Under the pieces are notes generated by a model, which was given only the letters and a program-made list of their open reading frames with translations, did no database searches and was not told the origin of the DNA. From a virus, in IMG/VR virus record IMGVR_UViG_3300037189_004920, positions 1 through 64,000 of that record: a stretch of DNA of 64,000 nt; one strand, 5' to 3'. Below, piece after piece: positions 22,720 to 35,409 of the stretch. The position numbers were made by a program, and so were the translations under genes. The stretch's first letter is position 1. Each line of letters begins with the position of its first letter.

Positions 22720-22748
22720 ATTGTACACTAGGTTTTGCCTATTGTCAA
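22720..22748 (-). promoter_or_regulatory. Early promoter P1
   Basis: TTGACA - 17 bp - TACAAT on the minus strand; spacer core GGTTTTGCC (plus-strand reading). It drives the GIY-YIG gene. Confidence 0.85.
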
Positions 22749-22807
22749 GAGGGGAGGGAGAGCTCTTCTACTAGGGACACTACCCCCCAAGCTCTCCCGG
22801 AGCAACC

Positions 22808-23131
22808 TTAGTCTAAACGACTGCCTGCGTAGGCCTTTAGACCCAATGTGTTTAGGTAGTTGGCATAGGCCCAAGCACCTGCTTCTTTAATGTCTATGTT
22901 CTGTACTGGGAGTCCACCTGGATTCCACATGCTCAAACACCGGGGCTTGTAGTCCTTCTTAAAGCCTGCCTTCAGTAGCTCTTGTGCCTGCTTTGAGTTA
23001 GTGCGATCCACATAGACCTCAACCCAAGCAAAGCCACAGCAACCTCTGTCCCCGCCCCACTTGGCGTACTCGGCTTGGCTTGCTTGCTCTGCGAAGACCT
23101 TGCCTGCTGTAATGAATTCTGCTGTTACCAT
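22808..23131 (-). CDS. Hypothetical early protein
   Basis: A 107-residue protein with GCCGFAWVEVYVDRTNSKQAQELLKAG in the centre (short quotes only) and a C-terminal AWAYANYLNTLGLKAYAGSRLD. The CGFAWV-type centre recalls other small phage proteins of unknown role. It is monocistronic from promoter P2 with AAAGGAGC in the leader. Confidence 0.65.
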   Translation of the reverse strand: MVTAEFITAGKVFAEQASQAEYAKWGGDRGCCGFAWVEVYVDRTNSKQAQELLKAGFKKDYKPRCLSMWNPGGLPVQNIDIKEAGAWAYANYLNTLGLKAYAGSRLD

Positions 23132-23159
23132 TTGTCTGCTCCTTTGTGTTAGTGTCTAA

Positions 23160-23188
23160 AGTATACTAGGTTTTACCTAACTTGTCAA
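23160..23188 (-). promoter_or_regulatory. Early promoter P2
   Basis: TTGACA - 17 bp - TATACT; spacer core GGTTTTACC. It drives the gene at 22808-23131. The TGA in TTGACA is also the stop codon of the upstream gene (23185-23562). Confidence 0.88.
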
Positions 23189-23562
23189 CCCTCTACGCAG
23201 ATATATTTCTTGTCCCAGCTACCAATCTGCATGTGTGTATAGAACGCAGTGTGGAAGTAATCGGTCATGGCATCGCTCTCATCAAAGTAAACACGACCGC
23301 CCGCACGACCCGGAGCATTGTGCATGATCTCATCAATCTTGATCAGGGCCGCTTGGTCATCTGCATCCTGCCAGTGGTCCTTGATCCAGTAGTTGTTGAC
23401 CTGTGCATAGTCCTTGCCTTCGAATGCGCAAGTGCCCTGCATGATGTTCACGTCCACGCTAAGGCTACCACTGCCCTTGCGAACGCTGAACTTCCACTTG
23501 GGGAATGCCTGCTTGAGTTCTGCGCGGATTGCTTGGACGTCTTCTTTGCTAATGTATGCCAT
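23185..23562 (-). CDS. LPD29-like early protein
   Basis: A 125-residue protein. The N-terminal half (ISKEDVQAIRAELKQAFPKWKFSVRKG, then SLSVDVNIMQG) fits the small phage/mobile-element domain LPD29 (IR..L...FP...FSVR...S..V), and the C-terminus ends with HMQIGSWDKKY. The match is by pattern only and its function is unknown. Its stop codon is inside the next promoter's -35 box. Confidence 0.65.
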   Translation of the reverse strand: MAYISKEDVQAIRAELKQAFPKWKFSVRKGSGSLSVDVNIMQGTCAFEGKDYAQVNNYWIKDHWQDADDQAALIKIDEIMHNAPGRAGGRVYFDESDAMTDYFHTAFYTHMQIGSWDKKYICVEG

Positions 23563-23594
23563 TGTCAGCTCCTGTGTGTTAGTGTATGTGTTAC

Positions 23595-23622
23595 ATTATA
23601 CACGGTTTTACCGGAATGTCAA
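23595..23622 (-). promoter_or_regulatory. Early promoter P3
   Basis: TTGACA - 16 bp - TATAAT; spacer core GGTTTTACC. It drives the LPD29-like gene. Confidence 0.88.
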
Positions 23623-23624
23623 GC

Positions 23625-23822
23625 CTATTGAGCAAATATTTCTCGGCTAAGGATCTCGTCTTCAACCAGCTGGTTACAGGCATTCAGGGTAAACATTAGC
23701 ACTAGGTTGGCATTGGCCTGCTCTTTGCTGGGCAAGTGCGCAATGAAGTCCTGGACTTCGGCTAGGGTTGGAGTGGTGAACAAGTTACTCTTGGGGATGG
23801 GGTTTTGAACGATATCGTACAT
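23625..23822 (-). CDS. Small hypothetical early protein
   Basis: A 65-residue protein (YDIVQNPIPKSNLFTTPTL..., LVLMFTLNACNQLVEDEIL). Predicted mainly helical; not recognised. It is monocistronic from promoter P4 and ends 3 bp before the -35 box of P3. Confidence 0.62.
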   Translation of the reverse strand: MYDIVQNPIPKSNLFTTPTLAEVQDFIAHLPSKEQANANLVLMFTLNACNQLVEDEILSREIFAQ

Positions 23823-23848
23823 GCTTGCTCCTGTGTGTTAGTGTGTTA

Positions 23849-23877
23849 ATTATACAACCGGTTTTATCAGTTGTCAA
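23849..23877 (-). promoter_or_regulatory. Early promoter P4
   Basis: TTGACA - 17 bp - TATAAT; spacer core GGTTTTATC. It drives the gene at 23625-23822. Confidence 0.85.
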
Positions 23878-24046
23878 GTCTTTTTATGCCCAAGGTGCCC
23901 ACCCACATGATGAGCAGGCCCACACCACTGACCAGGACTCCTGTGGCCAATGTGGCATTGTCCATGCTGAGCTCTACGCTACCCACACCGCCCAAGGTCA
24001 AGAGTAGACCCACGGTGAAACAGAACATGCTTTCATTCTCAGTCAT
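23867..24046 (-). CDS. Small two-helix membrane protein
   Basis: A 59-residue protein. Two hydrophobic stretches, FCFTVGLLLTLGGVG and TGVLVSGVGLLIMWVGTLG, predict two transmembrane helices; a basic KRLDN end follows. Its ATG overlaps the TAA of the upstream gene (TAATG), so it is translationally coupled to it. Its 3' end runs into promoter P4. It is small enough to be overlooked, but the overlap and the promoter cassette upstream support it. Confidence 0.68.
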   Translation of the reverse strand: MTENESMFCFTVGLLLTLGGVGSVELSMDNATLATGVLVSGVGLLIMWVGTLGIKRLDN

Positions 24047-24228
24047 TATGCATACTCCTTAGGTGCAAACATCTTCTCGCCTGCTTCCATGAACACGAAG
24101 TAGGCCCGCAGTTCTTCCAGTGTGTAGTTGTGACTGTTGGTCTTGATGTCCATGAGCACTTCTAGGACTCCTGTATCCCGACCATATGCCTTGGCCTGGA
24201 TGATCTTACATGCCTTTGCTATATCCAT
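24046..24228 (-). CDS. Small hypothetical early protein
   Basis: A 60-residue protein from ATG 24228 (MDIAKACKIIQAKAYGRDTG, then MDIKTNSHNYTLEELRAYF). A longer frame upstream runs through promoter P5, so the 24228 start with its GGAGC-type leader is preferred. First gene of a two-gene unit with the 59-residue membrane protein. Confidence 0.65.
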   Translation of the reverse strand: MDIAKACKIIQAKAYGRDTGVLEVLMDIKTNSHNYTLEELRAYFVFMEAGEKMFAPKEYA

Positions 24229-24259
24229 TTCCTGCTCCTTTTGTTTAGTGTATGTGTAC

Positions 24260-24288
24260 ATTGTACACTCGGTTTTACCAAATGTCAA
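24260..24288 (-). promoter_or_regulatory. Early promoter P5
   Basis: TTGACA - 17 bp - TACAAT; spacer core GGTTTTACC. It drives 24046-24228 and 23867-24046. Its TGA is the stop codon of 24285-24539. Confidence 0.9.
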
Positions 24289-24539
24289 CCTAATACCACT
24301 ACACGGCGTGTGGACTCGTCAACAATTTCGTTGCCCTCGTCATCAAAGTCACCCTCGCCATCGTCTTCCACCATCTTGTCCATGCGGTGGTACTCACTGT
24401 ACACTACTGCGCCTTCAAACACTTCACCCACCTTAGGGGCTACCTGTGTGCGCCAATGGTCACCGTAATTGTATGCAAAATGGACTTCTGCATCCTTGTC
24501 CATGTAGCCCAACTGCTCGATAAGTTCTTGTACTGTCAT
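24285..24539 (-). CDS. Small acidic early protein
   Basis: An 84-residue protein: VQELIEQLGYMDKDAEVHFAYNYGDHWRT at the start and a Glu/Asp-rich C-terminal half (MVEDDGEGDFDDEGNEIVDE). The N-terminal pattern is that of small phage proteins beginning VxELIexLxxxdpdaeV; no function is known. It is monocistronic from P6. Confidence 0.68.
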   Translation of the reverse strand: MTVQELIEQLGYMDKDAEVHFAYNYGDHWRTQVAPKVGEVFEGAVVYSEYHRMDKMVEDDGEGDFDDEGNEIVDESTRRVVVLG

Positions 24540-24571
24540 TTAGTGCTCCTGCTTTGTTAGTGTATGTGTCT

Positions 24572-24600
24572 AGTATAGCACAGGTTTTACCGGCTGTCAA
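24572..24600 (-). promoter_or_regulatory. Early promoter P6
   Basis: TTGACA - 17 bp - TATACT; spacer core GGTTTTACC. It drives 24285-24539. Its TGA is the stop codon of 24597-24797. Confidence 0.9.
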
Positions 24601-24797
24601 CCTTCTATCCAACAATCCCTGGCTGACTGTATGGTTGTTTCCTGCCCGCCAATGTAGCCACCCTCAAAGCCATTTGGGCCTGCCTCTAGGTACAGCCTGT
24701 CCCCTTCGATCCGGGTGATGCGACCTGACTGCTCGATGTCACACTTAAAGCTGACGTAGTCCCCTACCTTGACCACTTGACCATCTACCTTTGCCAT
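24597..24797 (-). CDS. Small SH3-like early protein
   Basis: From ATG 24797, 66 residues. The pattern KVGDYVSFKCDIEQSGRITRIEGDRLYLE is that of a short beta-barrel (SH3/KOW-like) domain. A longer frame would start within promoter P7, so the shorter start is preferred. No specific function is assigned. Confidence 0.66.
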   Translation of the reverse strand: MAKVDGQVVKVGDYVSFKCDIEQSGRITRIEGDRLYLEAGPNGFEGGYIGGQETTIQSARDCWIEG

Positions 24798-24823
24798 GTT
24801 GCGCTCCTTGTTAGTGTATGTGT

Positions 24824-24852
24824 ATAATAACACAAAAGGAAAAACCTGTCAA
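24824..24852 (-). promoter_or_regulatory. Early promoter P7
   Basis: TTGACA - 17 bp - TATTAT; spacer core is the variant GGAAAAACC. It drives 24597-24797. Its TGA is the stop codon of 24849-25061. Confidence 0.8.
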
Positions 24853-25061
24853 CCGTAGTACTTGTATAACCCTGCTAGCCCTATGGTTATTGCTACAACG
24901 TTAACCAGTAGCTGAGGCTTGTTGCGCACACGCAAGGTCCAGGCAAGATAGAATATGCCACCTGCCACGCCTGCTACAATGTTATAGGGGTGCAGGTGAG
25001 GAAAGAAAGACATTAGCACGTACATGGTGAGGAGGCACACCGTGCCTGCCCACTGCAACAT
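24849..25061 (-). CDS. Small integral membrane protein
   Basis: A 70-residue protein, nearly all hydrophobic: LQWAGTVCLLTMYVLMSFF, PYNIVAGVAGGIFYLAWTL and LLVNVVAITIGLAGLYKYYG predict three transmembrane helices with a short basic loop. Last gene of the three-gene unit from P8. A TTG at 25073 gives an alternative, slightly longer start. Small phage membrane proteins of this kind often act in superinfection exclusion or host takeover, but there is no direct evidence here. Confidence 0.7.
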   Translation of the reverse strand: MLQWAGTVCLLTMYVLMSFFPHLHPYNIVAGVAGGIFYLAWTLRVRNKPQLLVNVVAITIGLAGLYKYYG

Positions 25062-25069
25062 GTTATTAA

Positions 25070-25297
25070 TCAAAATGTCTCCAAGTCAAATTCCATGTCA
25101 GCAACCACAAGCTCTAGCATGTCTGCTAGTCGCATCTTGTCTGCCTTGCTCAGTGTCTCCACCTCGTCATCATAAAAGTACTGCATCAAGTCTGCGTCTA
25201 GTCCCACATGCCCGTCCATGTAGTCTAAGCCTGCATCACCTCTGTCGTATATTTTACCAAATGCATCTGCAATTCTTTTGTTTAGTGCTTTACTCAT
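25070..25297 (-). CDS. Small hypothetical early protein
   Basis: A 75-residue protein with acidic, helical composition (LSKADKMRLADMLELVVADMEFDLETF at the C-terminus). Not recognised. Second gene of the unit from P8; 9 bp separate it from the upstream gene. Confidence 0.65.
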   Translation of the reverse strand: MSKALNKRIADAFGKIYDRGDAGLDYMDGHVGLDADLMQYFYDDEVETLSKADKMRLADMLELVVADMEFDLETF

Positions 25298-25306
25298 TTT
25301 ACTTCC

Positions 25307-25462
25307 TTAATCTACGTAATAATCTACTGCTTCTGTTAGTTTGTGCAATGCACCTTCTAACTCTGCAAAGCAGTCCATCTCTGCTAGTTGCTCGCCGTCT
25401 AGCGTAGCCTCCATCAGCATGTCGTCTATCTCTGCTAGCTTTGCAAGTATAGCATCTCTCAT
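25307..25462 (-). CDS. Small hypothetical early protein
   Basis: A 51-residue, acidic helical protein (MRDAILAKLAEIDDMLMEAT, then AELEGALHKLTEAVDYYVD), likely a coiled coil. A longer frame would cross promoter P8, so ATG 25462 is chosen. First gene of the unit from P8. Confidence 0.62.
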   Translation of the reverse strand: MRDAILAKLAEIDDMLMEATLDGEQLAEMDCFAELEGALHKLTEAVDYYVD

Positions 25463-25490
25463 CTTACGCTCCTTCTTAGTGTATGCGCTA

Positions 25491-25519
25491 ATTATACAAT
25501 CGGTTTTGCCGTTTGTCAA
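25491..25519 (-). promoter_or_regulatory. Early promoter P8
   Basis: TTGACA - 17 bp - TATAAT; spacer core GGTTTTGCC. It drives three genes, 25462 down to 24849. Confidence 0.87.
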
Positions 25520-25537
25520 TCTGTGCCGTTAATACCC

Positions 25538-25753
25538 TTACGCTGTGTAAGTGTATCCTTCTTCGCCTGCTAGTGCGCAGTCCATCCATTCTTCAAAACA
25601 GTCTTCTGCGTATTCTTCTTCCCAAATCAAAATCTGATCGCATGTTACAAACTCTTTGCCGCGTTGCAGTGTCACCTTTACAGTGCTTCCGCTAGCATAT
25701 TCGCTCTTGTAGTAACCTGCGTCTTCTATGTTTACAACTTTTACCTTTTGCAT
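25538..25753 (-). CDS. Small hypothetical early protein
   Basis: A 71-residue protein from ATG 25753: MQKVKVVNIEDAGYYKSEYA, followed by a beta segment and an acidic C-terminus (CDQILIWEEEYAEDCFEEWMD). Not recognised. It is monocistronic from P9; a longer frame would cross that promoter. Confidence 0.63.
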   Translation of the reverse strand: MQKVKVVNIEDAGYYKSEYASGSTVKVTLQRGKEFVTCDQILIWEEEYAEDCFEEWMDCALAGEEGYTYTA

Positions 25754-25784
25754 CTTTGCTCCTATTGCTTTAGTGTATGTGTAC

Positions 25785-25813
25785 ATTGTAGCATAGGTTT
25801 TTCCTTTTGTCAA
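25785..25813 (-). promoter_or_regulatory. Early promoter P9
   Basis: TTGACA - 17 bp - TACAAT; spacer core GGTTTTTCC. It drives 25538-25753. Confidence 0.85.
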
Positions 25814-25853
25814 TCTGCTGTGCAAATAACCCTACTGTGTGTAGGGTTATTGC

Positions 25854-26069
25854 TTATGCTACAATGACAAAGTCTTCTGCACTAAGGGAGGCAACTGCCT
25901 TGCTAATAAGCATAGGGAGGTCTTCCTCCAAACAGTCCCCGGAGGTGTATACTGCATTTTTGCTGTTGACTTTTTGCGTAGTGTTGAACGCAATGTAAAA
26001 ACGACTGCATTTGACTGCGTGTTTGTTGGGGGATTTTACTACACGGACTTGCGCTGTGCTTGCTTGCAT
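25854..26069 (-). CDS. Small hypothetical early protein
   Basis: A 71-residue protein (MQASTAQVRVVKSPNKHAVK, then FYIAFNTTQKVN, ending EDFVIVA), predicted alpha/beta. Not recognised. It is monocistronic from P10. Confidence 0.6.
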   Translation of the reverse strand: MQASTAQVRVVKSPNKHAVKCSRFYIAFNTTQKVNSKNAVYTSGDCLEEDLPMLISKAVASLSAEDFVIVA

Positions 26070-26099
26070 TGTTTAGCTCCTTTTGTTTAGTGTGTAAGT

Positions 26100-26128
26100 A
26101 TAATAACACAGGTTTTACCACCTGTCAA
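26100..26128 (-). promoter_or_regulatory. Early promoter P10
   Basis: TTGACA - 17 bp - TATTAT; spacer core GGTTTTACC. It drives 25854-26069. Confidence 0.87.
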
Positions 26129-26176
26129 CCGGTCTTGGCAATACCCACACTAACATCAAGGTCTTTCACTCAAAGT

Positions 26177-26208
26177 GACAGGGAAGACCACTAACAATCT
26201 TCCCTGTC
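26177..26208. other. 11-bp perfect hairpin in 3' region
   Basis: GACAGGGAAGA and TCTTCCCTGTC form a perfect stem with a 10-nt loop, in the 126-bp gap downstream of the HTH gene. No U tract follows on either strand, so it is more likely an RNA-protecting structure, a processing site or an operator than a standard terminator. Confidence 0.7.
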
Positions 26209-26254
26209 GGGTGCCTACGGGAGCGAATCGCAGGGCTTTTCCTCTAGGCGAGGA

Positions 26255-26545
26255 TTAAAGGGTAATACCTAGGCTTTGTGCCTTGTAGCCCAGTGCGGTC
26301 AATTTGCGTGACGCCTCACCATGGCGGTATTCTGTAACTTCAACATTGTTACCAGCAACACGGCTCTTGCTGTATACAGCATAACCACGTTGACGAATAA
26401 CTGAGATAGTGGCAGTAGGATTCTTAATACCAAAACGCTTGGCGATCTGTGCCTCTGTCAATGTCTCCTTGTCCAATACCAATGCCTTGAACAATTTGCC
26501 TTGTTTTGTTTCTAAATCGAAACGCTTGAGTTTAGTTGCTTTCAT
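26255..26545 (-). CDS. HTH (winged-helix-like) DNA-binding protein
   Basis: A 96-residue basic protein. The segment LTEAQIAKRFGIKNPTATIS followed by VIRQRGYAVYSKSR is a helix-turn-helix with a wing-like extension (about residues 28-66). The N-terminus KATKLKRFDLETKQGKLF is basic. Its promoter lacks the GGT-N3-ACC element present in most neighbouring promoters, so it could be the regulator that recognises that element; this is inference. Confidence 0.75.
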   Translation of the reverse strand: MKATKLKRFDLETKQGKLFKALVLDKETLTEAQIAKRFGIKNPTATISVIRQRGYAVYSKSRVAGNNVEVTEYRHGEASRKLTALGYKAQSLGITL

Positions 26546-26594
26546 TTTTTGTTTCCTCTATATAAAGTGGCTGTCTTTATCACAGCATGTCACT

Positions 26595-26623
26595 ATTATA
26601 TAGGGGAATTGATTATATTGCAA
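26595..26623 (-). promoter_or_regulatory. Early promoter P11 (no operator core)
   Basis: TTGCAA - 17 bp - TATAAT; the spacer has no GGT-N3-ACC. It drives the HTH gene. Confidence 0.65.
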
Positions 26624-26640
26624 GAGTCAATTTGCCCAAA

Positions 26641-26760
26641 TTAGGCGCCGTTGTAAGGACTATACTCTTCAAGGTCTTCTTCTTGAGTTTGATCCTCTTG
26701 TGAGCGTTGACGAATCATTTGGTCCATGACCTTTTGCAGTTCGGTAAAATCGTATGCCAT
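26641..26760 (-). CDS. 39-residue acidic early protein
   Basis: MAYDFTELQKVMDQMIRQRS then a Glu/Gln/Asp-rich end. It lies 2 bp after the stop of the preceding gene and is the last gene of the unit from P12. The tight spacing and a full-length open frame support it; function is unknown. Confidence 0.58.
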   Translation of the reverse strand: MAYDFTELQKVMDQMIRQRSQEDQTQEEDLEEYSPYNGA

Positions 26761-26762
26761 GT

Positions 26763-26990
26763 TTATTCCTTAAAAGAGTTAATCAAATCCACAGTGGAAT
26801 CTTCCACACTATCTACTTCATCAATGCAAGCCAATATCATTAGCTCACATACCACTTGCGCCTGTTCCCTATCCTTCTTAGGCAGTGAACGAATAAAGGT
26901 CGTAACCTGATCAGTGCTGTCCAAACTCCACATAATGTCTGCGAACAGACGTTGCTTCTTTGACAGACCTTCTATAACGATGTTAGACAT
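26763..26990 (-). CDS. Small hypothetical early protein
   Basis: A 75-residue helical protein (IVIEGLSKKQRLFADIMWSL, RSLPKKDREQAQVV, ending LINSFKE). Not recognised. Third gene of the P12 unit; 1 bp separates it from the upstream gene. Confidence 0.66.
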   Translation of the reverse strand: MSNIVIEGLSKKQRLFADIMWSLDSTDQVTTFIRSLPKKDREQAQVVCELMILACIDEVDSVEDSTVDLINSFKE

Positions 26991-26991
26991 A

Positions 26992-27168
26992 TTAGCTTTC
27001 CCAATCAGTTGGAGTTAAATCTACCACACCTTCAATCTCAGTCCACAAGTCGTAGACCTTAGCACTCAATTGTTTCTTCACAGCTGGGTTTAAATGTAGT
27101 TCCAGTATCAAGGCATCCACATCATCCAACAGCGAATCAATTTGGGCCAGTGTATCTTCAGTCTTCAT
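26992..27168 (-). CDS. Small helical early protein
   Basis: A 58-residue protein from ATG 27168 (MKTEDTLAQIDSLLDDVDAL, KKQLSAKVYDLWTEIEG), strongly helical and acidic. Longer in-frame starts overlap the upstream gene and lack a ribosome-binding site. Second gene of the P12 unit. Confidence 0.64.
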   Translation of the reverse strand: MKTEDTLAQIDSLLDDVDALILELHLNPAVKKQLSAKVYDLWTEIEGVVDLTPTDWES

Positions 27169-27169
27169 A

Positions 27170-27418
27170 TTACACCCAACTCTTCTTGTCACCGCACTCT
27201 TCGTTGTATGCGTAACCTGCCTTGTAAGCCTCAACCTGTTCCTCAGTCATTACTGGTGGGGTCAGCTTGGGTGCATTACCTGTGCCATTTGGATAGTAAT
27301 GCGGATCAAGACCACGACCATAATAGCTGTCTGCACTACCACGATCAAATGGGCTACCATGCTTCTGCAGATAGCTCTTGCCCTTATACTCTACCATGCT
27401 CTCTTGCTCTATAAACAT
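27170..27418 (-). CDS. Small hypothetical early protein
   Basis: From ATG 27418, 82 residues. VEYKGKSYLQKHGSPFDRGS then YYGRGLDPHYYPNGTGN, and a C-terminal EEQVEAYKAGYAYNEECGDKK. The EEQVEAYKAGY segment is of a type seen in several small phage proteins; function is unknown. First gene of the P12 unit. Confidence 0.68.
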   Translation of the reverse strand: MFIEQESMVEYKGKSYLQKHGSPFDRGSADSYYGRGLDPHYYPNGTGNAPKLTPPVMTEEQVEAYKAGYAYNEECGDKKSWV

Positions 27419-27446
27419 TGTCGCTCCTTTGTTTAACTTAGCCACT

Positions 27447-27475
27447 AGTATAGCACCGGTTATACCACCTGTCAA
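27447..27475 (-). promoter_or_regulatory. Early promoter P12
   Basis: TTGACA - 17 bp - TATACT; spacer core GGTTATACC (a perfect GGT/ACC dyad). It drives four genes, 27418 to 26641. Confidence 0.86.
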
Positions 27476-27480
27476 CCTGT

Positions 27481-27591
27481 TTATCCAAAGACCATATGAG
27501 CAATAAGGTTACCAGCCACGATGAGCGACACTGCAATGAATAGACAATTCACCACCACCAGTGCTACAATGATCCATTCCTCAGTCGTCAT
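27481..27591 (-). CDS. 36-residue single-helix membrane protein
   Basis: MTTEEWIIVALVVVNCLFIA then VSLIVAGNLIAH: one or two transmembrane segments. It overlaps the upstream gene by 11 bp, implying coupled translation. Too short to assign a function. Confidence 0.55.
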   Translation of the reverse strand: MTTEEWIIVALVVVNCLFIAVSLIVAGNLIAHMVFG

Positions 27592-27793
27592 AAGCCTCTT
27601 CACCCAGCTCAGTCACAGTCTCCTCCACCACATGGAGATCAATGATGCGAGCTGTTTGATCTTCATTGCTCACACCTTGGAACGCTGTCCTGAAGCTTTG
27701 GTTCTCTGCAAGGAAGTCAAACACATCCATGCGGTCCCAACCCTCTGGGACCTCCAACTCTTGATTGATGATTGTGGTAACAAGAACTTTCAT
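27581..27793 (-). CDS. Small acidic early protein
   Basis: A 70-residue protein (VLVTTIINQELEVPEGWDRM, DFLAENQSFRTAFQGV), ending in acidic residues. It resembles short phage proteins beginning VxVxxTxxxELEVPEGW; function is unknown. Second gene of the P13 unit. Confidence 0.65.
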   Translation of the reverse strand: MKVLVTTIINQELEVPEGWDRMDVFDFLAENQSFRTAFQGVSNEDQTARIIDLHVVEETVTELGEEAYDD

Positions 27794-28090: not shown

Positions 28091-28119
28091 AGTATAGCAG
28101 AGTCGGTATTACCTGTCAA
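28091..28119 (-). promoter_or_regulatory. Early promoter P13
   Basis: TTGACA - 17 bp - TATACT; spacer core GGTATTACC (perfect GGT/ACC dyad). It drives 28060 to 27481. Confidence 0.86.
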
Positions 28120-28140: not shown

Positions 28141-28164
28141 GGGTGTTGTATTTCTACAACACCC
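28141..28164 (-). terminator. Terminator of the acidic-tip protein gene
   Basis: A 10-bp perfect stem, GGGTGTTGTA/TACAACACCC, with a 4-nt loop; in the leftward RNA it is followed by UUUCUU. It contains the GTTGTA-N4-TACAAC dyad that recurs at 30001, 31515 and 33975. Confidence 0.65.
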
Positions 28165-28188
28165 CGGCACTCAGCGTCTTACGTATAC

Positions 28189-28209: not shown

Positions 28210-28572
28210 TTAGAAAGGGGCGTCTTCAAGATCGGCGAGAGATGCCTTAGCTTTGGCTTGTGACATCACAGTGTCTGCTACTGTGGTCTTCTTAGCCTTA
28301 GTGGGCTTGGCTGCTTGCAACTCTACCTTACGTTTAGTTGCTTCACGTTGAATGGCTTCAGCCTTCTCAACGTTACCATCGGAGAAGTCAATTGCTAGCA
28401 AGTAGCTGACCACTTCTGACTTGGTCATAGCACGTGGCAGTTCAAGAAGGTCAATGTTGTCGTGTCCGCCTTTAACTAGTACTTTGACACGTGTCATATC
28501 ATTAGCAAAACGAACTTTGGTACTGCCGTTAACTTTAGAAGTACCGGCTACAGTGAACAGTTTATCAGTCAT
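28210..28572 (-). CDS. Basic early protein with SSB-like C-terminal tip
   Basis: A 120-residue protein. The N-terminal half is beta-rich (LFTVAGTSKVNGSTKVRFAN, RVKVLVKGGHDNIDLLEL), the middle Lys/Ala-rich, and it ends ASLADLEDAPF. This acidic tip, with final Pro-Phe, resembles the peptide at the end of bacterial SSB (DDDIPF) that docks on host repair and replication proteins. The match is short and could be chance. It is monocistronic from P14 and closed by the hairpin at 28141-28164. Confidence 0.7.
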   Translation of the reverse strand: MTDKLFTVAGTSKVNGSTKVRFANDMTRVKVLVKGGHDNIDLLELPRAMTKSEVVSYLLAIDFSDGNVEKAEAIQREATKRKVELQAAKPTKAKKTTVADTVMSQAKAKASLADLEDAPF

Positions 28573-28623
28573 TTAAATCTCCAAGTGTGAATGTGTGTGT
28601 TAGAACAATCTCTAACTATTAAT

Positions 28624-28652
28624 AGTATACTACCTTTTGAGCAGCTTGTCAA
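28624..28652 (-). promoter_or_regulatory. Early promoter P14
   Basis: TTGACA - 17 bp - TATACT; spacer lacks the GGT-N3-ACC core. It drives 28210-28572. Confidence 0.8.
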
Positions 28653-28804: not shown

Positions 28805-28882
28805 TGGTGGGCCCTGTGTGAGTCGAACACACCACCAATGGATTATGAGTCCACTGCTCTAACCAACATGAGCTAAGGGCCC
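28805..28882 (-). tRNA. tRNA with CAU anticodon (probably Ile2, possibly Met)
   Basis: The 78-nt gene folds as a complete cloverleaf on the minus strand: acceptor GGGCCCT/AGGGCCC, an encoded ACCA 3' end, T loop TTCGACT, and an anticodon arm with loop CTCATAA. The pattern UUAGCUCA...GAGCAG...GACUCAUAAUC...UUGGU is closer to tRNA-Ile2, whose CAU is converted to lysidine-AU by TilS to read AUA, than to elongator Met. AUA codons are visible in the structural genes, which fits. The identity cannot be settled from sequence alone. Confidence 0.93.
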
Positions 28883-29356: not shown

Positions 29357-29385
29357 ATTATACAACCGAAACATTCAGTTGTCAA
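29357..29385 (-). promoter_or_regulatory. Early promoter P15
   Basis: TTGACA - 17 bp - TATAAT; spacer has GAAACATTC, not the core. Its TGA is the stop codon of 29382-29654. It drives 29325 to 28656 including the tRNA. Confidence 0.8.
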
Positions 29386-29681: not shown

Positions 29682-29710
29682 AGTATAGCACGGTTTTACC
29701 ATCTTGTCAA
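29682..29710 (-). promoter_or_regulatory. Early promoter P16
   Basis: TTGACA - 17 bp - TATACT; spacer core GGTTTTACC. The TAA stop of the upstream gene (29696-29941) is formed by this core. Confidence 0.88.
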
Positions 29711-29961: not shown

Positions 29962-29990
29962 AGTATAGCACCGGTAAAACCAAATGTCAA
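29962..29990 (-). promoter_or_regulatory. Early promoter P17
   Basis: TTGACA - 17 bp - TATACT; the core is in the opposite orientation, GGTAAAACC on the plus strand. It drives 29696-29941. Confidence 0.87.
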
Positions 29991-29999
29991 CCAGAATTT

Positions 30000-30017
30000 T
30001 GTTGTATTTTTACAACA
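30000..30017. repeat. GTTGTA-TTTT-TACAAC dyad
   Basis: A 7-bp inverted repeat just downstream of the stop at 30018 and about 10 bp upstream of the -35 box of P17. No U tract follows in the leftward RNA. Confidence 0.7.
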
Positions 30018-30269
30018 TTAATCGTCTATCTGTCCGTTGGCTCGGAACCAGGTCTTGATGACCTTAACGATGGCATCAGCTTCAGCATCGCGTAGGGGCT
30101 TTTCGCTTTCAGGTACTTGGGCTCTAGGAAACTCACAACGATCTTCTATAAGGTCAATGCAAGCACGAGCCGTGACCACCATCAACTCCCATAGGCGGGG
30201 ATCTTGGCACTCCTCTTCTGAGTACCCTGCATGTTTCTTTAAGTCGTCTTGCCATTTGTATTCTGTCAT
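30018..30269 (-). CDS. Small hypothetical early protein
   Basis: An 83-residue acidic protein (TEYKWQDDLKKHAGYSEEEC, QDPRLWELMVVTARACIDLI), helical. Not recognised. No early-type promoter is evident between it and the terminator at 30292-30321, so it may depend on read-through. Confidence 0.64.
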   Translation of the reverse strand: MTEYKWQDDLKKHAGYSEEECQDPRLWELMVVTARACIDLIEDRCEFPRAQVPESEKPLRDAEADAIVKVIKTWFRANGQIDD

Positions 30270-30345: not shown

Positions 30346-30359
30346 GGAGCAAAGTTGGG

Positions 30360-30392
30360 TGGGGAGTGGGCCTGCGTTTTGTTGACTCCCCA
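30360..30392. other. Hairpin TGGGGAGT/ACTCCCCA
   Basis: A perfect 8-bp stem in the same gap as the hairpins at 30292 and 30327. Three hairpins within 100 bp suggest a structured 3' untranslated region or a small RNA. Confidence 0.65.
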
Positions 30393-30433
30393 TTAAGGTA
30401 TTACCTAGGACTGCCCTTACCACCCGTAAACTG

Positions 30434-31021
30434 TTATTTCGATTCTTTCTCTTCTTCCTCTTCAGCGTTCTCTTCTTCCCATTCAGCCATATATTCACTG
30501 ATGCAGAACATTTCGTCTAAGACTGCGGGCAGTTCTTCTCGGACCTGCTCACTGGTCATACCACTAAGGTCATAGTAGTCATCTTCAAAGTCTTCCCAAA
30601 TACCAGCAAAGCACATGCCACCTTCATAGTAGTAGGCACGAACGCTGAAGCCCAAGTCAACCAACTTCTCGTATGCCTGGATAGGTGGTGACCACGCACT
30701 GTCAAAGGATGTGCTAATGCGACCATTCTCAATCTCGCAGGTCATGCCATCGCCACCGACGTCCCACTTGGTGCCCCACTCGTTGACACAATAGTCATAC
30801 CAGTTGCCATAGCCATGAACTTCCATGTTGCGTTTGGTATCTTCTTCGAGCTTCTTCTGCTCTGCTTCATCACTTACCATGCCTGCTACAATGTGCAAAC
30901 TCTCTGGCACTGGGATGAATTCATTTAGGAACTCTCCGCGATTCAGTGCATCACGAGCACGCTCAAGCATTGCTGGATCTTCGTGGGCCAGCTCGACCAC
31001 ATTGTTACACCAATTTGGCAT
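30434..31021 (-). CDS. Api92-like (DUF1281) family protein
   Basis: A 195-residue protein. The family signature is clear: MPNWCNNVVEL at the start, NWYDYCVNEWGTKWDV in the middle, then FDSAWSPPIQAYEKLVDLGF and a YYYEGGMCFAGIWED block. This matches the ferredoxin-like-fold domain found in phages and plasmids (Api92/DUF1281), whose molecular role is unknown. The C-terminus is very acidic (AEWEEENAEEEEEKESK). Its start overlaps the preceding 57-residue gene. Confidence 0.87.
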   Translation of the reverse strand: MPNWCNNVVELAHEDPAMLERARDALNRGEFLNEFIPVPESLHIVAGMVSDEAEQKKLEEDTKRNMEVHGYGNWYDYCVNEWGTKWDVGGDGMTCEIENGRISTSFDSAWSPPIQAYEKLVDLGFSVRAYYYEGGMCFAGIWEDFEDDYYDLSGMTSEQVREELPAVLDEMFCISEYMAEWEEENAEEEEEKESK

Positions 31022-31178
31022 TGTCAATCTCCTTCAGTTGTTCGTCAAGTTCTAGTGAGTCTGCAAGACAATTGGCAGTGCTTGCCAGCACTCGCAGGAC
31101 CTTCATGCGTTCTTCAACGGTCAAGACTTCTTCAAGTCTCTTCATGCACCGTTGCATCAATGCTACTTGACCCATCAT
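31005..31178 (-). CDS. 57-residue helical early protein
   Basis: MMGQVALMQRCMKRLEEVLT then EERMKVLRVLASTANCLADS and ELDEQLKEI: a helical, probably coiled-coil protein. Its ATG overlaps the stop of the upstream gene and its 3' end overlaps the start of the Api92-like gene, a compact three-gene unit from P18. Confidence 0.63.
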   Translation of the reverse strand: MMGQVALMQRCMKRLEEVLTVEERMKVLRVLASTANCLADSLELDEQLKEIDNAKLV

Positions 31179-31447
31179 ACTGGGCTCAGCATGTTAGCAG
31201 GAACACGCCACATGCCTTGTGGCGTAGCCACTGTGACATACTTACGACCTACCTTGTTCACAGTGCCCTTATAGGTCATGCCATTCCGTGTGCTAGTGAA
31301 CTGAACATTAGAACCAGTCCGCATGCTAAAGATGTTCTTCTGTGCAATACGGCTACGGGCAAACTTCACAGCGTCCATGATGCTATCCAGCTGTTCGTTA
31401 GTAAAGGCACCTTGCAGGATCTCTGCATTGATAGTTTGAATTGACAT
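31175..31447 (-). CDS. Small conserved phage protein with SH3-like core
   Basis: A 90-residue protein. A helical N-terminus (LQGAFTNEQLDSIMDAVKFA) is followed by VQFTSTRNGMTYKGTVNKVG and KYVTVATPQGMWRVPANMLS, a short beta-barrel pattern recurrent in phage proteins of unknown role (TxRNGxxxxGTVxKVxRKxVxV...WRVPxxML). First gene of the P18 unit. Confidence 0.78.
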   Translation of the reverse strand: MSIQTINAEILQGAFTNEQLDSIMDAVKFARSRIAQKNIFSMRTGSNVQFTSTRNGMTYKGTVNKVGRKYVTVATPQGMWRVPANMLSPV

Positions 31448-31476
31448 ACTCGCTCCTTTTGTTTAACTTAGCCTAT

Positions 31477-31505
31477 AGTATAGCACCGGTAAAACCATTT
31501 GTCAA
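31477..31505 (-). promoter_or_regulatory. Early promoter P18
   Basis: TTGACA - 17 bp - TATACT; core GGTAAAACC (reversed orientation). It drives 31447 to 30434. Confidence 0.87.
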
Positions 31506-31514
31506 GCCTTTTTG

Positions 31515-31534
31515 GTGTTGTATTTTTACAACAC
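31515..31534. repeat. GTGTTGTA-TTTT-TACAACAC dyad
   Basis: An 8-bp inverted repeat 9 bp upstream of the -35 box of P18, overlapping the 3' end of the gene at 31526. Confidence 0.7.
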
Positions 31535-31819
31535 TCCTTCTTGCTCTAGCTCAGCAACCGCTTCATTGAACAAGTTCTCCAACTCTTCAATAGACAAGGT
31601 GTTGTGTTTTTGCAACGGAGCGGCACTCCTGCCCTTGACCAAAGCAGACCCTTTGACATACATTCGAGCATAGTGTTCGGCACAATAGCTCTTGCCCTTG
31701 ACCACCTTGCAACCACAGTAGGTCACTGGACTGGTCCTTGGATCCTGATTAGGGCCCAGCCACTGACAGCCCCAATCCTTCTCGATCATCCGTTGCATGA
31801 CGCTGTCAGTCAAGTTCAT
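31526..31819 (-). CDS. Cys/His zinc-binding protein resembling GcrA C-terminal region
   Basis: A 97-residue protein. The central region has CQWLG (C18), TYCGCKV (C35, C37), SYCAEHYARMYVKG (C45, H48): a C...C.C...C..H arrangement like the short zinc-binding region of GcrA-family regulators and a small phage family I recall. The C-terminal 25 residues are an acidic helix (SIEELENLFNEAVAELEQE). Its role is unknown. Second gene of the P19 unit, 1 bp after the ATPase. Confidence 0.7.
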   Translation of the reverse strand: MNLTDSVMQRMIEKDWGCQWLGPNQDPRTSPVTYCGCKVVKGKSYCAEHYARMYVKGSALVKGRSAAPLQKHNTLSIEELENLFNEAVAELEQEGVL

Positions 31820-31820
31820 A

Positions 31821-32672
31821 TTAGGCCCTCTTCATGCAAGTAAGAGCAGCCACACTCTGCCATTTGTCAGGCATTGCCGCACGAAGGTCTGCAACCTTGA
31901 TGACCATACGCAATGACAGCTCACGCATCTTGTCCTTGTTCACATCAATGAACTGTACCACTTCAGCCTTCTGCTCTTCAGTCAGGTCGTATACATCCAG
32001 CATGCCATCGTTCACAATCTGCTTGATACGAAGGATCTTCTCACGAGCTGTGTCAATGGTGAGGTCCAAGTAGTGACAGCGTGACTCTAGTGCATCCAAG
32101 TGGTCACGGAGCTTCTTACTGCGCACATGCTCGAACTTGATGTTAGTAATAAAGATGGCACTGCCTGCGAACTCAAACGAATTGGGGATACCTTCTGCTC
32201 GCAACACACGGCTGTCTGTGTTCCAAGAGATAGTGCGCTTCTTGCTAGAGTCAAGAGCAGCCTTCAAAATATTAAGACTCAGCTCGTCCAGCAATACGCT
32301 GTCACAGTCGTCAAACACCAAGACACTGCCTTTCTTGCTGTACTCATAGAGCTTGCTGTACAAGCCAATGGCACTCATTGCACCCTTGAGGATTTCATAG
32401 CGTGGCTTGCGGTCACCCATCTTGTCAAACAGGTCGTCTTTGGTCAGTACTGCTTCAACACCAAAGCTCTTGCCCACACCTGGGGGGCCTGAAACGATCA
32501 TGGCACGGACATCACCTTTGCGCACACCCTTGGTCATGTCTTCAAGGATAGTGAATCGTTCTTTAATACGAGTGATGATCTCTTCATCAGTCTCACGGGC
32601 CACTGCCTTCTCACGGGCCTTGATAGCTTCTTGATCAAAGTCCAAAAGGTTAGTTGCGGGTGCTTTTGCCAT
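31821..32672 (-). CDS. AAA+ ATPase, early
   Basis: A 283-residue ATPase: Walker A SGPPGVGKS (61-69), Walker B VLVFDDCD (117-124), a sensor-like ITN at about 174-176 (AIFITNIKFEH), and an Arg-rich region DALESRCHYLDL likely to hold the arginine finger. It resembles AAA+ proteins encoded by many phages near early genes; its substrate is unknown. At 283 residues it has the AAA module and a helical lid (REKILRIKQIVND) but no extra domain. It is driven by P19 and followed by the Cys/His protein. Confidence 0.88.
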   Translation of the reverse strand: MAKAPATNLLDFDQEAIKAREKAVARETDEEIITRIKERFTILEDMTKGVRKGDVRAMIVSGPPGVGKSFGVEAVLTKDDLFDKMGDRKPRYEILKGAMSAIGLYSKLYEYSKKGSVLVFDDCDSVLLDELSLNILKAALDSSKKRTISWNTDSRVLRAEGIPNSFEFAGSAIFITNIKFEHVRSKKLRDHLDALESRCHYLDLTIDTAREKILRIKQIVNDGMLDVYDLTEEQKAEVVQFIDVNKDKMRELSLRMVIKVADLRAAMPDKWQSVAALTCMKRA

Positions 32673-32701
32673 TCTATGCTCCTGTGTGTGTTTAAAGTGT
32701 A

Positions 32702-32730
32702 ATTATACTGCCGGAAGTTTCATTTGTCAA
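32702..32730 (-). promoter_or_regulatory. Early promoter P19
   Basis: TTGACA - 17 bp - TATAAT; no core (spacer contains CCGGAAGTTTC). It drives 32672 to 31526. Confidence 0.82.
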
Positions 32731-32747
32731 CCCCCGGCCCTGCCTAT

Positions 32748-33137
32748 TTACCACCAACTGTCGTAGTAAACGGCATCGCCCACTGCCAGTACTTCGCGGC
32801 ACTCTGCAATGAAGCGCAGGTCTTCAGTGTCGCTGTCCTCGTCTGGAGGATTGTCTCCAAAGAAGAAACCACTAGTACTAGGCAATTGTCTAGCCTTAAT
32901 GTCCAACTCCAAGGCCAAGAGGTCTACCTCATTGAGGCGAACGGGCACACAATTGAAGCTGTCAGCTTCGCCACCCTTGGCATAGTACAGCCGCTCCATC
33001 CAACCATGGAGGTTGTGATGCTTGCGCCAGTAGTGCATCTCTTCTACCTTGCCACGACCTTCTTCGTCCTTGGCAATAGTAAAGTCATCAATGGCATCCT
33101 CTGCCTTGACTCGCCACGCATACATGTCTAAACCCAT
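32748..33137 (-). CDS. Conserved phage protein (MGLDMYA family)
   Basis: A 129-residue protein of a widespread phage and prophage family recognised by MGLDMYAWRVK, the HYWRKHHNLHGWMERLY segment, and FNCVPVRLNEVDLLALE. Acidic C-terminus. Function unknown to me. It is monocistronic from P20. Confidence 0.82.
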   Translation of the reverse strand: MGLDMYAWRVKAEDAIDDFTIAKDEEGRGKVEEMHYWRKHHNLHGWMERLYYAKGGEADSFNCVPVRLNEVDLLALELDIKARQLPSTSGFFFGDNPPDEDSDTEDLRFIAECREVLAVGDAVYYDSWW

Positions 33138-33167
33138 TGCTCGCTCCTTCTTATTAACTTAGCCTAT

Positions 33168-33196
33168 AGTATACTGGAAAAACCGGCCCTTGTCAA
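33168..33196 (-). promoter_or_regulatory. Early promoter P20
   Basis: TTGACA - 17 bp - TATACT; core variant GGAAAAACC. Its TGA is the stop codon of the gene at 33193-33906. Confidence 0.85.
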
Positions 33197-33906
33197 GCCT
33201 GTTGCATAAAGACCACAAAGCCTGAACGGTCTTTCTTAGCACGGCCCTTAGCCTTAAGACCTAGCACCACGCCCCTAGGATCAAGGAAGCGAAGGTCTGT
33301 ATCATCTGCATTGAATACAGTCTTGCCCTTGTACTCTGCAGGGATCTTGTCAAACACAACGGTCACGTTCATGTTCTTGCTGATGGCCCAGTTGGCATCC
33401 TTCTCATTGCCGTCTGCTTGGCTGAACGTGAGGTGATAGTTCTTAATGCCGTCTACCTTGCGCTTGGGCACCTTGGTGTAGTCATAAAACTGTACTTGGG
33501 GGAAGGCTTCAAAGATGTTAGTGTAGCCCGCTACCTCATACTTCTCCCAGCTCAAGTCGCTAGTACCATTCAAACGGAACACAGGAGTCAAGCCCTTGCG
33601 CTCTGCGAACTTGATGGCCTTCTGGATGTCTTTGTAGAGATCAGCCATAAAGCCTGCACGGTCTTCAAAGAAGTACTTGGCCTTGCGGATACGTGCCTTC
33701 TGGATAGTGTTGGTGGTCTCACCTTTCTTGAACATACCACCACGACCGGCAGTGTTCAAGCATGCCGCCTTACAACCAGCCGTGGCCTTGGGGCAGGTAT
33801 TGTAGCCGCTCACATCAGCAGGGGCAAGGTGAAGGATAAAGCTCAAGTAGCCTTGCTTGGTACCCTTTTGGATTTTTGGGTTGGCAGTACTTAACAGTTT
33901 GAACAT
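33193..33906 (-). CDS. GP88-like family protein
   Basis: A 237-residue protein. The pattern NTCPKATAGCKAACLNTAGR near residues 37-56, followed by ARIRKAKYFFEDRAGFMADL and PVFRLNGTSDLSWEKY, matches the phage family called gene product 88 (Cys-rich N-terminus, then RLNGTSDLxWE). The cysteines may bind metal. Molecular function is unknown. It is monocistronic from P21; the stop is in the -35 box of P20. Confidence 0.85.
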   Translation of the reverse strand: MFKLLSTANPKIQKGTKQGYLSFILHLAPADVSGYNTCPKATAGCKAACLNTAGRGGMFKKGETTNTIQKARIRKAKYFFEDRAGFMADLYKDIQKAIKFAERKGLTPVFRLNGTSDLSWEKYEVAGYTNIFEAFPQVQFYDYTKVPKRKVDGIKNYHLTFSQADGNEKDANWAISKNMNVTVVFDKIPAEYKGKTVFNADDTDLRFLDPRGVVLGLKAKGRAKKDRSGFVVFMQQA

Positions 33907-33935
33907 GCTAGCTCCTTTGTGTAGTGTATGTCATA

Positions 33936-33964
33936 ATTATACTGCCGGTTTTACCGATTGTCAA
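33936..33964 (-). promoter_or_regulatory. Early promoter P21
   Basis: TTGACA - 17 bp - TATAAT; core GGTTTTACC. It drives the GP88-like gene. Confidence 0.9.
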
Positions 33965-33974
33965 CCATTTTCTT

Positions 33975-33992
33975 TGTTGTATTTTTACAACA
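33975..33992. repeat. TGTTGTA-TTTT-TACAACA dyad
   Basis: A 7-bp inverted repeat 11 bp upstream of the -35 box of P21, the fourth copy of this element. Confidence 0.7.
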
Positions 33993-34142
33993 CTATCTGA
34001 CCTGCCCGGCACTCACGCCCACTGGACCGCCCAAGCTACCAGGTCTTGGTTCATCTAGGAAGGCACATGAATAGATCACTTGACCTATCACATAGGCCAA
34101 GGCTAGATGTAAGACTAGTCTACTCCAACGGATCTTGGGCAA

Positions 34143-34430
34143 TCACATGCTCCAGTAGAGTTCACTTGATGGATCACATGCTCGTGGGGTGTCATGTGGG
34201 ATCTCCATGTCCCGCCCCGTCATCAAGTTCTTCACAGTCTTCATAGTGGGCACGAACTCTATGCGATAGCCTAACCGTGTGGGCCACAGTTCATACTGGA
34301 GTTCACGCACCTCACGACGCATCTCTGCCTCGTCCCTGTTCTGCCATACTGTAGTGCTTACAAGTCGTTCGCCCCGTTTGGTACGACGATCCGCCTTGTA
34401 GATGTACATGGTGTGAGAGGTCTTCATCAT
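34143..34430 (-). CDS. Small basic early protein
   Basis: A 95-residue protein, Arg-rich in the middle (YKADRRTKRGERLVSTTVW, EAEMRREVRELQYELWPTRL), probably nucleic-acid-associated. It starts with ATGATG overlapping the stop of the preceding HTH-like gene, so the two are translationally coupled. Not recognised. Confidence 0.68.
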   Translation of the reverse strand: MMKTSHTMYIYKADRRTKRGERLVSTTVWQNRDEAEMRREVRELQYELWPTRLGYRIEFVPTMKTVKNLMTGRDMEIPHDTPRACDPSSELYWSM

Positions 34431-34663
34431 TCGTCTCCGTAGTAGCCGTAGTCTTCGTCCGTGCCAAAGCCAGCAGAGGCAAGGGCATCACCATCGTCCT
34501 CGTAGTCTGGTTCGTAGTCTTCTTCCTGCTCCATCATGTCAGCAAAGATCTCCTCCACAGTGGATTGTGGCACATCGTATCGCTCGGCAATCTCTGCAAA
34601 GCTCAAGTCGCCCGAGTTCAGCTCGTCTTGGATATCAAAAATTACGTCTTTTAGTGCGCCCAT
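34427..34663 (-). CDS. Small HTH-like protein with acidic tail
   Basis: A 78-residue protein. LSFAEIAERYDVPQSTVEEI (residues 20-39) reads as a helix-turn-helix; the second half is strongly acidic with Tyr (EEDYEPDYEDDGDA, YGYYGDE). This arrangement resembles small phage regulators or DNA mimics; either is inference. First gene of the two-gene unit from P22, one of the promoters nearest the presumed origin. Confidence 0.72.
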   Translation of the reverse strand: MGALKDVIFDIQDELNSGDLSFAEIAERYDVPQSTVEEIFADMMEQEEDYEPDYEDDGDALASAGFGTDEDYGYYGDE

Positions 34664-34692
34664 ACAGTCAGCTCCTTAGTGTGTAAGTCTAA

Positions 34693-34721
34693 ATTATATG
34701 ATAAAACCTAGCCTTTGTCAA
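34693..34721 (-). promoter_or_regulatory. Early promoter P22
   Basis: TTGACA - 17 bp - TATAAT; spacer holds ATAAAACC, a degenerate core. It drives 34663 to 34143. Confidence 0.83.
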
Positions 34722-34768
34722 GAGCCTTTTGAAAGACCACACAAAGAGTCTGGCTTCTCCGCCACCGG

Positions 34769-34797
34769 TTGACAAAACGGTTTTTCCATTGTATACT
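34769..34797 (+). promoter_or_regulatory. Rightward early-type promoter facing the DnaA-box cluster
   Basis: TTGACA (34769-34774), 17 bp, TATACT (34792-34797). The spacer contains GGTTTTTCC, a variant of the same core. It is the only rightward member of this promoter class in the early region, and it transcribes into the DnaA-box cluster. Confidence 0.82.
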
Positions 34798-34829
34798 AGT
34801 GGCATAATAAGAAAACGGGAAGACCGGCC

Positions 34830-35042
34830 ATGTGTTCGAACAGTCATACTGGGGATGGACGTGGAGGCTGGGCGTCTGATTCTGGTGGTGGCAAAATAAA
34901 AAGAGCCCGCCCAAAAGCTCAAAGTTATCCACAGGTTGTTCACAGGGTGTGGATATCTTTCAGGTTATCCACAGCTTATCCGCCAGTTATCCACAACCAA
35001 TTCTGGACTTATCCACAGGTTATCCACAAGTTATTTCTTTAG
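34830..35042 (+). CDS. Possible small protein read through the DnaA boxes
   Basis: A 70-residue frame (MCSNSHTGDGRGGWASDSGG, then KIKRARPKAQ) lies downstream of the promoter at 34769-34797. Its C-terminal half is the DnaA-box repeat itself, reading YPQVV, VIHN and YPQVIHK. The ribosome-binding site is weak. It may instead be only an untranslated RNA entering the origin region. It ends tail to tail with the lipoprotein gene, overlapping by 12 bp. Confidence 0.25.
   Translation: MCSNSHTGDGRGGWASDSGGGKIKRARPKAQSYPQVVHRVWISFRLSTAYPPVIHNQFWTYPQVIHKLFL
34925..35028. other. DnaA-box cluster, candidate replication origin
   Basis: Perfect TTATCCACA boxes start at 34925, 34965, 34987, 35009 and 35020. 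Degenerate boxes start at 34936 (TTGTTCACA) and 34976 (TTATCCGCC), and one lies on the minus strand (34948-34956, TGTGGATAT). The distances 11, 11, 11, 22 and 11 between neighbouring starts put most boxes on one helical face. The cluster lies at the divide between leftward early and rightward late genes. This is the organisation expected of a DnaA-bound origin; DnaA titration is the main alternative. Confidence 0.8.
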
Positions 35043-35348
35043 GATTTCTCTGCAAAAGTCCTTACCATTGTCAGGGTTACTACGACAATAGCTGATCATT
35101 TCCACCTGTTCCCAATTTCTTTTCTCGGCAAAAGCTCTTGTGTCCACTTCTTTGACCGCTCCCCATTGTGGTTCAGGTCTTGATCTAGAACGACATTCCT
35201 CATCACCAGCGCGGTATTTTGCTTGATGGCCCACACAATCTCTCCAGTATGTCATACTCATACTATATGTGGTTATACTCATACTAGGACCTGTTGCACA
35301 CCCAGTCATACCTATACACGCTGTACATGCTAGTATAAGAGTTCTCAT
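35031..35348 (-). CDS. Small lipoprotein
   Basis: From ATG 35348 (GAGGAAG 8 bp upstream) the 105-residue protein begins MRTLILACTACIGMTGCATG: a short basic n-region, a hydrophobic core and a lipobox-like MTGC, predicting lipid-anchored export with mature Cys17. The mature part is polar with further cysteines (WRDCVGHQ, DEECRSRS, ISYCRSNPD, KDFCREIL), which may pair. A longer start at 35369 lacks a ribosome-binding site. Phage lipoproteins can block superinfection or modify the envelope; neither is shown here. It is driven by P23. Confidence 0.75.
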   Translation of the reverse strand: MRTLILACTACIGMTGCATGPSMSITTYSMSMTYWRDCVGHQAKYRAGDEECRSRSRPEPQWGAVKEVDTRAFAEKRNWEQVEMISYCRSNPDNGKDFCREILKK

Positions 35349-35380
35349 GCCGTAGTCTTCCTCGTTCACTATATGAGTAT

Positions 35381-35409
35381 AGTATACAGGATCACATCGG
35401 TTTTGTCAA
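35381..35409 (-). promoter_or_regulatory. Early promoter P23
   Basis: TTGACA - 17 bp - TATACT; spacer contains CGGTTTT, a partial core. It is the outermost leftward promoter and drives the lipoprotein gene. Confidence 0.82.

Follow-up and report, generated by a model that had tools for sequence, protein, structure and literature searches.

A conserved spacer dyad in a promoter array of an uncultured jumbo myovirus as a candidate operator

The window analysed here is a stretch of 64,000 nucleotides taken from a 64.8-kb contig of an uncultured virus. Its minus strand carries, between positions 22720 and 35409 (12.7 kb), an array of 23 consensus sigma70 promoters, and a 9-bp dyad, GGT-N3-ACC, recurs in the spacers that separate their -35 and -10 boxes. 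The confinement of this core to promoters, the absence of covariation in its flanks and its retention in front of particular genes support a sequence-specific DNA site that is neither an RNA hairpin nor a result of plain copying. The best reading of the dyad, and a reasonably probable one, is that of an operator that would shut off a subset of early promoters.

The promoter array and its spacer dyad

The promoters of the array, nearly one per gene or small operon, display a TTGACA box in 22 cases and TTGCAA in one, spacers of 16–17 bp and a TATAAT-like -10 box. All 23 had been counted in an initial annotation of the window and were confirmed; an additional promoter on the plus strand (34769-34797), absent from that count, brings the number of spacers to 24. 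The strict core is present in 11 of them, where it reads, on the promoter strand, GGTAAAACC (seven spacers), GGTTTTACC (two), GGTATAACC (promoter 27475) or GGTAATACC (promoter 28119), the first two corresponding to GGTTTTACC and GGTAAAACC, respectively, on the plus strand. A core with one mismatch is found in seven other minus-strand promoters and in the plus-strand promoter, and five minus-strand promoters (35409, 32730, 29385, 28652 and 26623) are devoid of it. The nine exact cores first noticed, seven in one orientation and two in the reverse, were therefore reproduced.

When the same spacers were shuffled 20,000 times, never more than two strict cores were obtained, against the 11 observed, so the enrichment withstands a random-sequence control. 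Outside promoters, GGTN3ACC occurs 12 times in the 64 kb, which is about the random rate. The offset of the dyad from the -35 box is mostly 3–5 bp in the window, values of 0, 6 and 7 also being present; the distance of 3–5 bp from the -10 side originally given for the dyad centre holds, in most cases, for the near edge of the dyad but not for its centre.

Relatives and confinement of the core to promoters

The window belongs to a jumbo myovirus that is a distant relative of the Pseudomonas jumbo phages PA5oct and Paride. Its terminase is 55% identical to theirs, an AAA protein is 52% identical to their counterpart, and the genes encoding terminase, SSB, a UvsX-like recombinase, primase, helicase and DNA ligase make up a T4-like set of replication and packaging functions. 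Relatives that carry the motif include contigs of 259–355 kb, which makes it probable that the window is a piece of a jumbo-phage genome; the promoter array of these relatives is restricted to a single section of the genome.

The comparison with related phages proposed in the initial annotation revealed the same dyad modules in dozens of uncultured relatives. When viral contigs were scanned for TTGACA-N3-GGT-N3-ACC-N5-TAT, at least 117 stretches matched and, among the matches listed, ten of the retrieved loci carry 5–9 such promoters. No such promoter array was found in the cultured phages PA5oct, RB49, RAS14 and Limnohabitans DC31, and XacN1 shows scattered matches only. A stricter pattern gave nine single matches in 257 Gb of bacterial genomes; in that collection, therefore, the motif does not represent a type of bacterial promoter. 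An AAA-protein tree separates motif-bearing from motif-free phages by one branch, the support of which is weak (46/5).

A set of 25 related loci, comprising 226 distinct modules that extend from the promoter to the ribosome-binding site (94 with the dyad and 132 without), was assembled. In 21 loci that carry the motif, 111 of 114 distinct copies of GGTAAAACC lie inside promoters with at least 10 of the 12 consensus bases; none of the 11 occurrences of four control 9-mers does. Many of these loci were picked for one such promoter, a bias that can account for no more than about 21 of the copies found in promoters. The centre of the dyad is AAA in 69 of the 94 dyad-bearing modules and its offset is 3 or 4 in 78.

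Retention of the dyad follows the gene

Genes located downstream of the modules were clustered into orthologs, close phages were removed and dyad status was permuted within each phage. Orthologs agree in their dyad status in 197 of 300 pairs, compared with 152.1±8.6 after permutation (p≤0.0002). When one-mismatch sites are counted, the association persists if any large cluster is dropped (p≤0.0015) and among pairs sharing less than 60% protein identity (p≤0.0012). Orthologous promoters are always dyad-bearing for 24260..24288 and 24572..24600, and mostly so for the GP88-like gene and for promoter 28091..28119; the dyad is never found upstream of the AAA protein gene, the 28210 family or the gene of a helix-turn-helix (HTH) protein (counts in Table 1). 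The proposal that the whole array could be controlled as one regulon is consequently not upheld for all promoters: many share a specific dyad site, but one class is always dyad-bearing and another never.

Among 130 pairs of orthologous dyad-bearing promoters, the offset differs in 91 and the orientation of the centre is flipped in 37. Furthermore, the identity of the spacer flanks is 0.47 between orthologous promoters of the relatives and 0.48 between unrelated modules, whereas the core is 92% identical. Differing offsets and orientations, together with unlike flanks, point to a site that is retained while the surrounding sequence turns over, and flanks that are no more alike between orthologous than between unrelated promoters argue that selection, and not copying alone, maintains the core.

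Copying has nevertheless left its mark on the leaders. A direct-repeat search of the window (threshold of at least 60%) detected eight copies of a 56-nt and seven copies of a 55-nt module, and four leaders are near-identical. These repeat families bear out the leader conservation noted earlier downstream of the -10 box. The broader claim that entire modules arose by repeated copying fits these near-duplicate leaders but not the spacer flanks of the relatives.

Comparison with known repeated elements

Promoter cassettes with inverted repeats are already known. T4-type phages such as RB49 reportedly carry promoter-early stem-loops (PeSLs), which are said to have been described by Arbiol in 2010 and Comeau in 2014. 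In the RB49 sequence, promoter hairpins lie between the -35 and -10 boxes. Like PeSLs, the modules of the window are multi-copy, strong sigma70-like early promoters with near-consensus hexamers, they are scattered among small accessory genes and they have an inverted repeat between or around the two boxes. A shared leader is a further common feature. PeSL recombination moves genes, and the duplicated leaders of the window may be a trace of similar shuffling. However, the repeats of PeSLs vary and form strong hairpins at which transcription ends, whereas the window displays a fixed 9-bp sequence with unpaired flanks, and its dyad-bearing modules show little folding (mean z -0.48, none below -2.5). 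PeSL cassettes are cited in PMC4503421.

Cluster O mycobacteriophages carry more than 30 copies of a 17-bp dyad, TGTTCGG-N3-CCGAACA, whose 3-bp A/T centre is mostly AAA or TTT, which is absent from the checked host genomes and which was proposed as the site of a dimeric protein (PMC4351075). The dyad described here likewise has perfect arms, a 3-bp A/T centre and many copies, but it is 9 bp long with GGT arms and lies almost always inside promoters, whereas the Cluster O dyads are mostly not near promoters. In Cluster K mycobacteriophages, the inverted repeats of the SAS/ESAS system lie upstream of a subset of genes and are considered by their authors, as the Cluster O dyads are by theirs, to be likely protein-binding sites (PMC3203893; PMC4351075). 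The spacer dyad resembles ESAS in that its retention follows the gene family and RNA pairing is unsupported. It differs from ESAS, which has 17-bp half sites with a variable spacer, stands beside a 13-bp start-associated sequence and is linked to translation start, in being a 9-bp dyad inside a sigma70 promoter spacer. The L5-type stoperators of Cluster A mycobacteriophages, which are temperate, are also many copies of one repressor site per genome; these sites are asymmetric, 13 bp long and mostly outside promoters, unlike the symmetric spacer dyad. A fixed, operator-like sequence at the place of the PeSL repeat would be a new variant: no earlier description of it was found, and neither GGTAAAACC nor GGTTTTACC was found printed as a word in the literature searched.

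Alternative explanations

The inverted repeat might act as RNA, in a PeSL-type cassette where a terminator or processing stem-loop for upstream read-through overlaps the next promoter as in RB49. This is improbable, although the early promoters of RB49 do carry strong hairpins between the two boxes, motif-free relatives have hairpins in or across the -35 box and folding slightly exceeds that of shuffled sequences in every promoter class. Indeed, the core stem has just 3 bp and, in the 25 loci, 24 flanking base pairs match where 22.9 are expected from composition, so the stem does not extend past the core. In addition, the one-arm changes GGC, GGA and GAT seen in the window with ACC intact are uncompensated, the AAA loop is itself conserved and a GC stem followed by TTT was not found in any dyad-bearing spacer of the 25 loci. 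The RNA hairpin was rejected for the core on this flank and arm analysis, although the weak folding excess persists in all classes. By contrast, most relatives preserve the pairing of the leader hairpin in front of the 28210 gene family although the stems differ widely in sequence. Even less credence is given to the dyad as a functionless by-product of module copying or recombination. The repeated leaders and module parts of the window would fit such an origin, as would the known ability of PeSL cassettes to shuffle genes, but the dyad tracks the gene, its core is conserved between flanks that diverge equally in orthologous and unrelated promoters, and 9 bp are probably too short for homologous recombination.

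It is also rather unlikely, albeit less so, that the dyad is an activator site or an extra promoter element for a modified RNA polymerase that would mark early use. A fixed polymerase geometry is hinted at by the preference for offsets of 3 or 4 and for an AAA centre on the coding strand, and by the GG that directly precedes the -35 box in 78 of 94 dyad-bearing promoters versus 71 of 132 dyad-free ones; the fixed offset and this GG leave room for an activator or a polymerase-contact element. On the other hand, the hexamers are near consensus, dyad-free promoters are almost equally strong, the offset ranges from 0 to 7 and the centre may flip.

The dyad as a probable operator and the search for its reader

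In the operator reading, the 22.7–35.4 kb region would be an early-gene array transcribed by the host sigma70 RNA polymerase from near-perfect promoters that would not need an activator. The dyad GGT-(A/T)3-ACC, located between the -35 and -10 boxes in about half of them, would be bound by a small symmetric DNA-binding protein, encoded by the phage or by the host, that would block the polymerase. This would turn off or jointly hold the dyad-bearing early subset, leaving out promoters that lack the dyad, for instance the one of the AAA protein gene and the one of gene 28210. The initial annotation had recognized an operator position compatible with repression or activation. Repression appears the better choice because 85 of 90 dyad-bearing promoters score 11–12 out of 12 against the consensus, and the polymerase should use such promoters unaided.

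Several observations weigh against an operator. Nine base pairs are short for such a site, and a preference for offset 3 or 4 and for the AAA orientation is unnecessary for a freely placed repressor site. The folding excess over shuffles (mean z -0.9 for dyad-bearing promoters) also counts here, as does the failure of the HTH candidate as a reader. Finally, 11 families common to three motif-bearing jumbo contigs were missing from two motif-free ones, and none of these families looks DNA-binding by eye.

The HTH protein encoded at 26255-26545, which had been put forward as the regulator that binds the dyad, was rejected. Its family is present in at least 558 viral loci, the motif accompanies it in 6 of the 40 HTH-bearing loci that have at least three promoters, and its recognition helices (for example NPTATISVIRQRGYAVY) are identical between motif-bearing and motif-free phages. 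Another apparent HTH family, which seemed to co-occur in 18 phages at about 34427-34663, arose from an artefact of clustering. The 28210 family, which at first seemed motif-specific, is also present in motif-free phages. The dyad may be read by a protein of the host, by a shared phage protein whose specificity has changed or by one that was overlooked.

Features of the array and its surroundings

Table 1. Promoters of the array and associated features (offset: bp from the -35 box)
Positions	Strand	Feature	Dyad in orthologs
22720..22748	-	Promoter, variant core GGCAAAACC at 22731-22739	
23160..23188	-	Promoter, strict core GGTAAAACC at 23169-23177, offset 5	
23595..23622	-	Promoter, 16-bp spacer, strict core GGTAAAACC at 23604-23612	
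23849..23877	-	Promoter, variant core GATAAAACC at 23860-23868	
24260..24288	-	Promoter, strict core GGTAAAACC at 24271-24279	4/4
24572..24600	-	Promoter, strict core GGTAAAACC at 24583-24591	4/4
24824..24852	-	Promoter, variant core GGTTTTTCC at 24838-24846, offset 0	
25491..25519	-	Promoter, variant core GGCAAAACC at 25502-25510	
25785..25813	-	Promoter, variant core GGAAAAACC at 25796-25804	
26100..26128	-	Promoter, strict core GGTAAAACC at 26111-26119	
26255..26545	-	Winged-HTH protein gene; own promoter (26595-26623) without core	0/3
26595..26623	-	Promoter TTGCAA/TATAAT without core, drives HTH gene	
27447..27475	-	Promoter, strict core GGTATAACC at 27458-27466	
28091..28119	-	Promoter, strict core GGTAATACC at 28105-28113, offset 0	9/11
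28624..28652	-	Promoter without core, gene 28210-28572	0/6
29357..29385	-	Promoter without core	
29682..29710	-	Promoter, strict core GGTAAAACC at 29692-29700, offset 4	
29962..29990	-	Promoter, strict core GGTTTTACC at 29973-29981, inverted orientation	
31477..31505	-	Promoter, strict core GGTTTTACC at 31488-31496, inverted orientation	
32702..32730	-	Promoter without core, AAA protein gene 31821-32672	0/8
33168..33196	-	Promoter, variant core GGTTTTTCC at 33176-33184, offset 6	
33936..33964	-	Promoter, strict core GGTAAAACC at 33947-33955, GP88-like gene	6/7
34693..34721	-	Promoter, variant core GGTTTTATC at 34700-34708, offset 7	
34769..34797	+	Divergent promoter, variant core GGTTTTTCC at 34779-34787	
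35381..35409	-	Promoter without core	

Several hairpins are found in or near the promoters of the window and of its relatives. The leader of gene 28210-28572 contains, at 28599-28616 (minus strand), a hairpin GTTAGAGATTGTTCTAAC whose stems differ but are compensated in most relatives and which is likely an mRNA-stabilising or regulatory RNA element. The gene itself (minus strand) belongs to an early family with a tail rich in Lys and Ala; many members end in an acidic DAPF/DAPY sequence that resembles the C-terminal tip of SSB. A hairpin GTTGTA-(AAAA)-TACAAC, possibly a terminator or a processing site, lies just 5' of four dyad-bearing promoters (28142-28165, 29998-30021, 31514-31537 and 33973-33996). 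In relatives, mostly motif-free (L191, L205, L214, L228 and others), promoters are embedded in GC-rich hairpins that span the -35 box, some of them followed by T runs as in terminators, and TTGG words recur near the -35 box and in the spacer. Among cultured jumbo phages, RAS14 has terminator-like hairpins over the -35 box and XacN1 an AATTTAA-rich spacer.

Five perfect DnaA boxes (TTATCCACA) are clustered within 104 bp (34925-35028), next to the divergent promoters 34721(-)/34769(+), and none occurs elsewhere in the window; this cluster is a candidate replication origin. A tRNA-Met(CAT) gene lies within the array at 28805-28882 (minus strand).

Implications for early-gene control in jumbo phages

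The timing of early genes in jumbo phages that lack their own RNA polymerase is largely unexplained. More tentatively than the operator itself, it can be envisaged that a clade of uncultured jumbo phages dependent on the host polymerase possesses a dedicated early regulon. A regulator other than the HTH protein encoded at 26255-26545 would read the dyad, which would occupy the position of the terminator hairpins in sister phages, and silence a defined, gene-specific half of the array. If about 20 promoters share a short operator that divergent phages conserve gene by gene, the question of timing would become testable: the DNA target is known, predictions can be made as to which genes are controlled and which are not, and a 9-bp bait could catch the reader. 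Cassettes with a hairpin and cassettes with an operator would, moreover, be linked as alternative uses of one promoter spacer in related phages.

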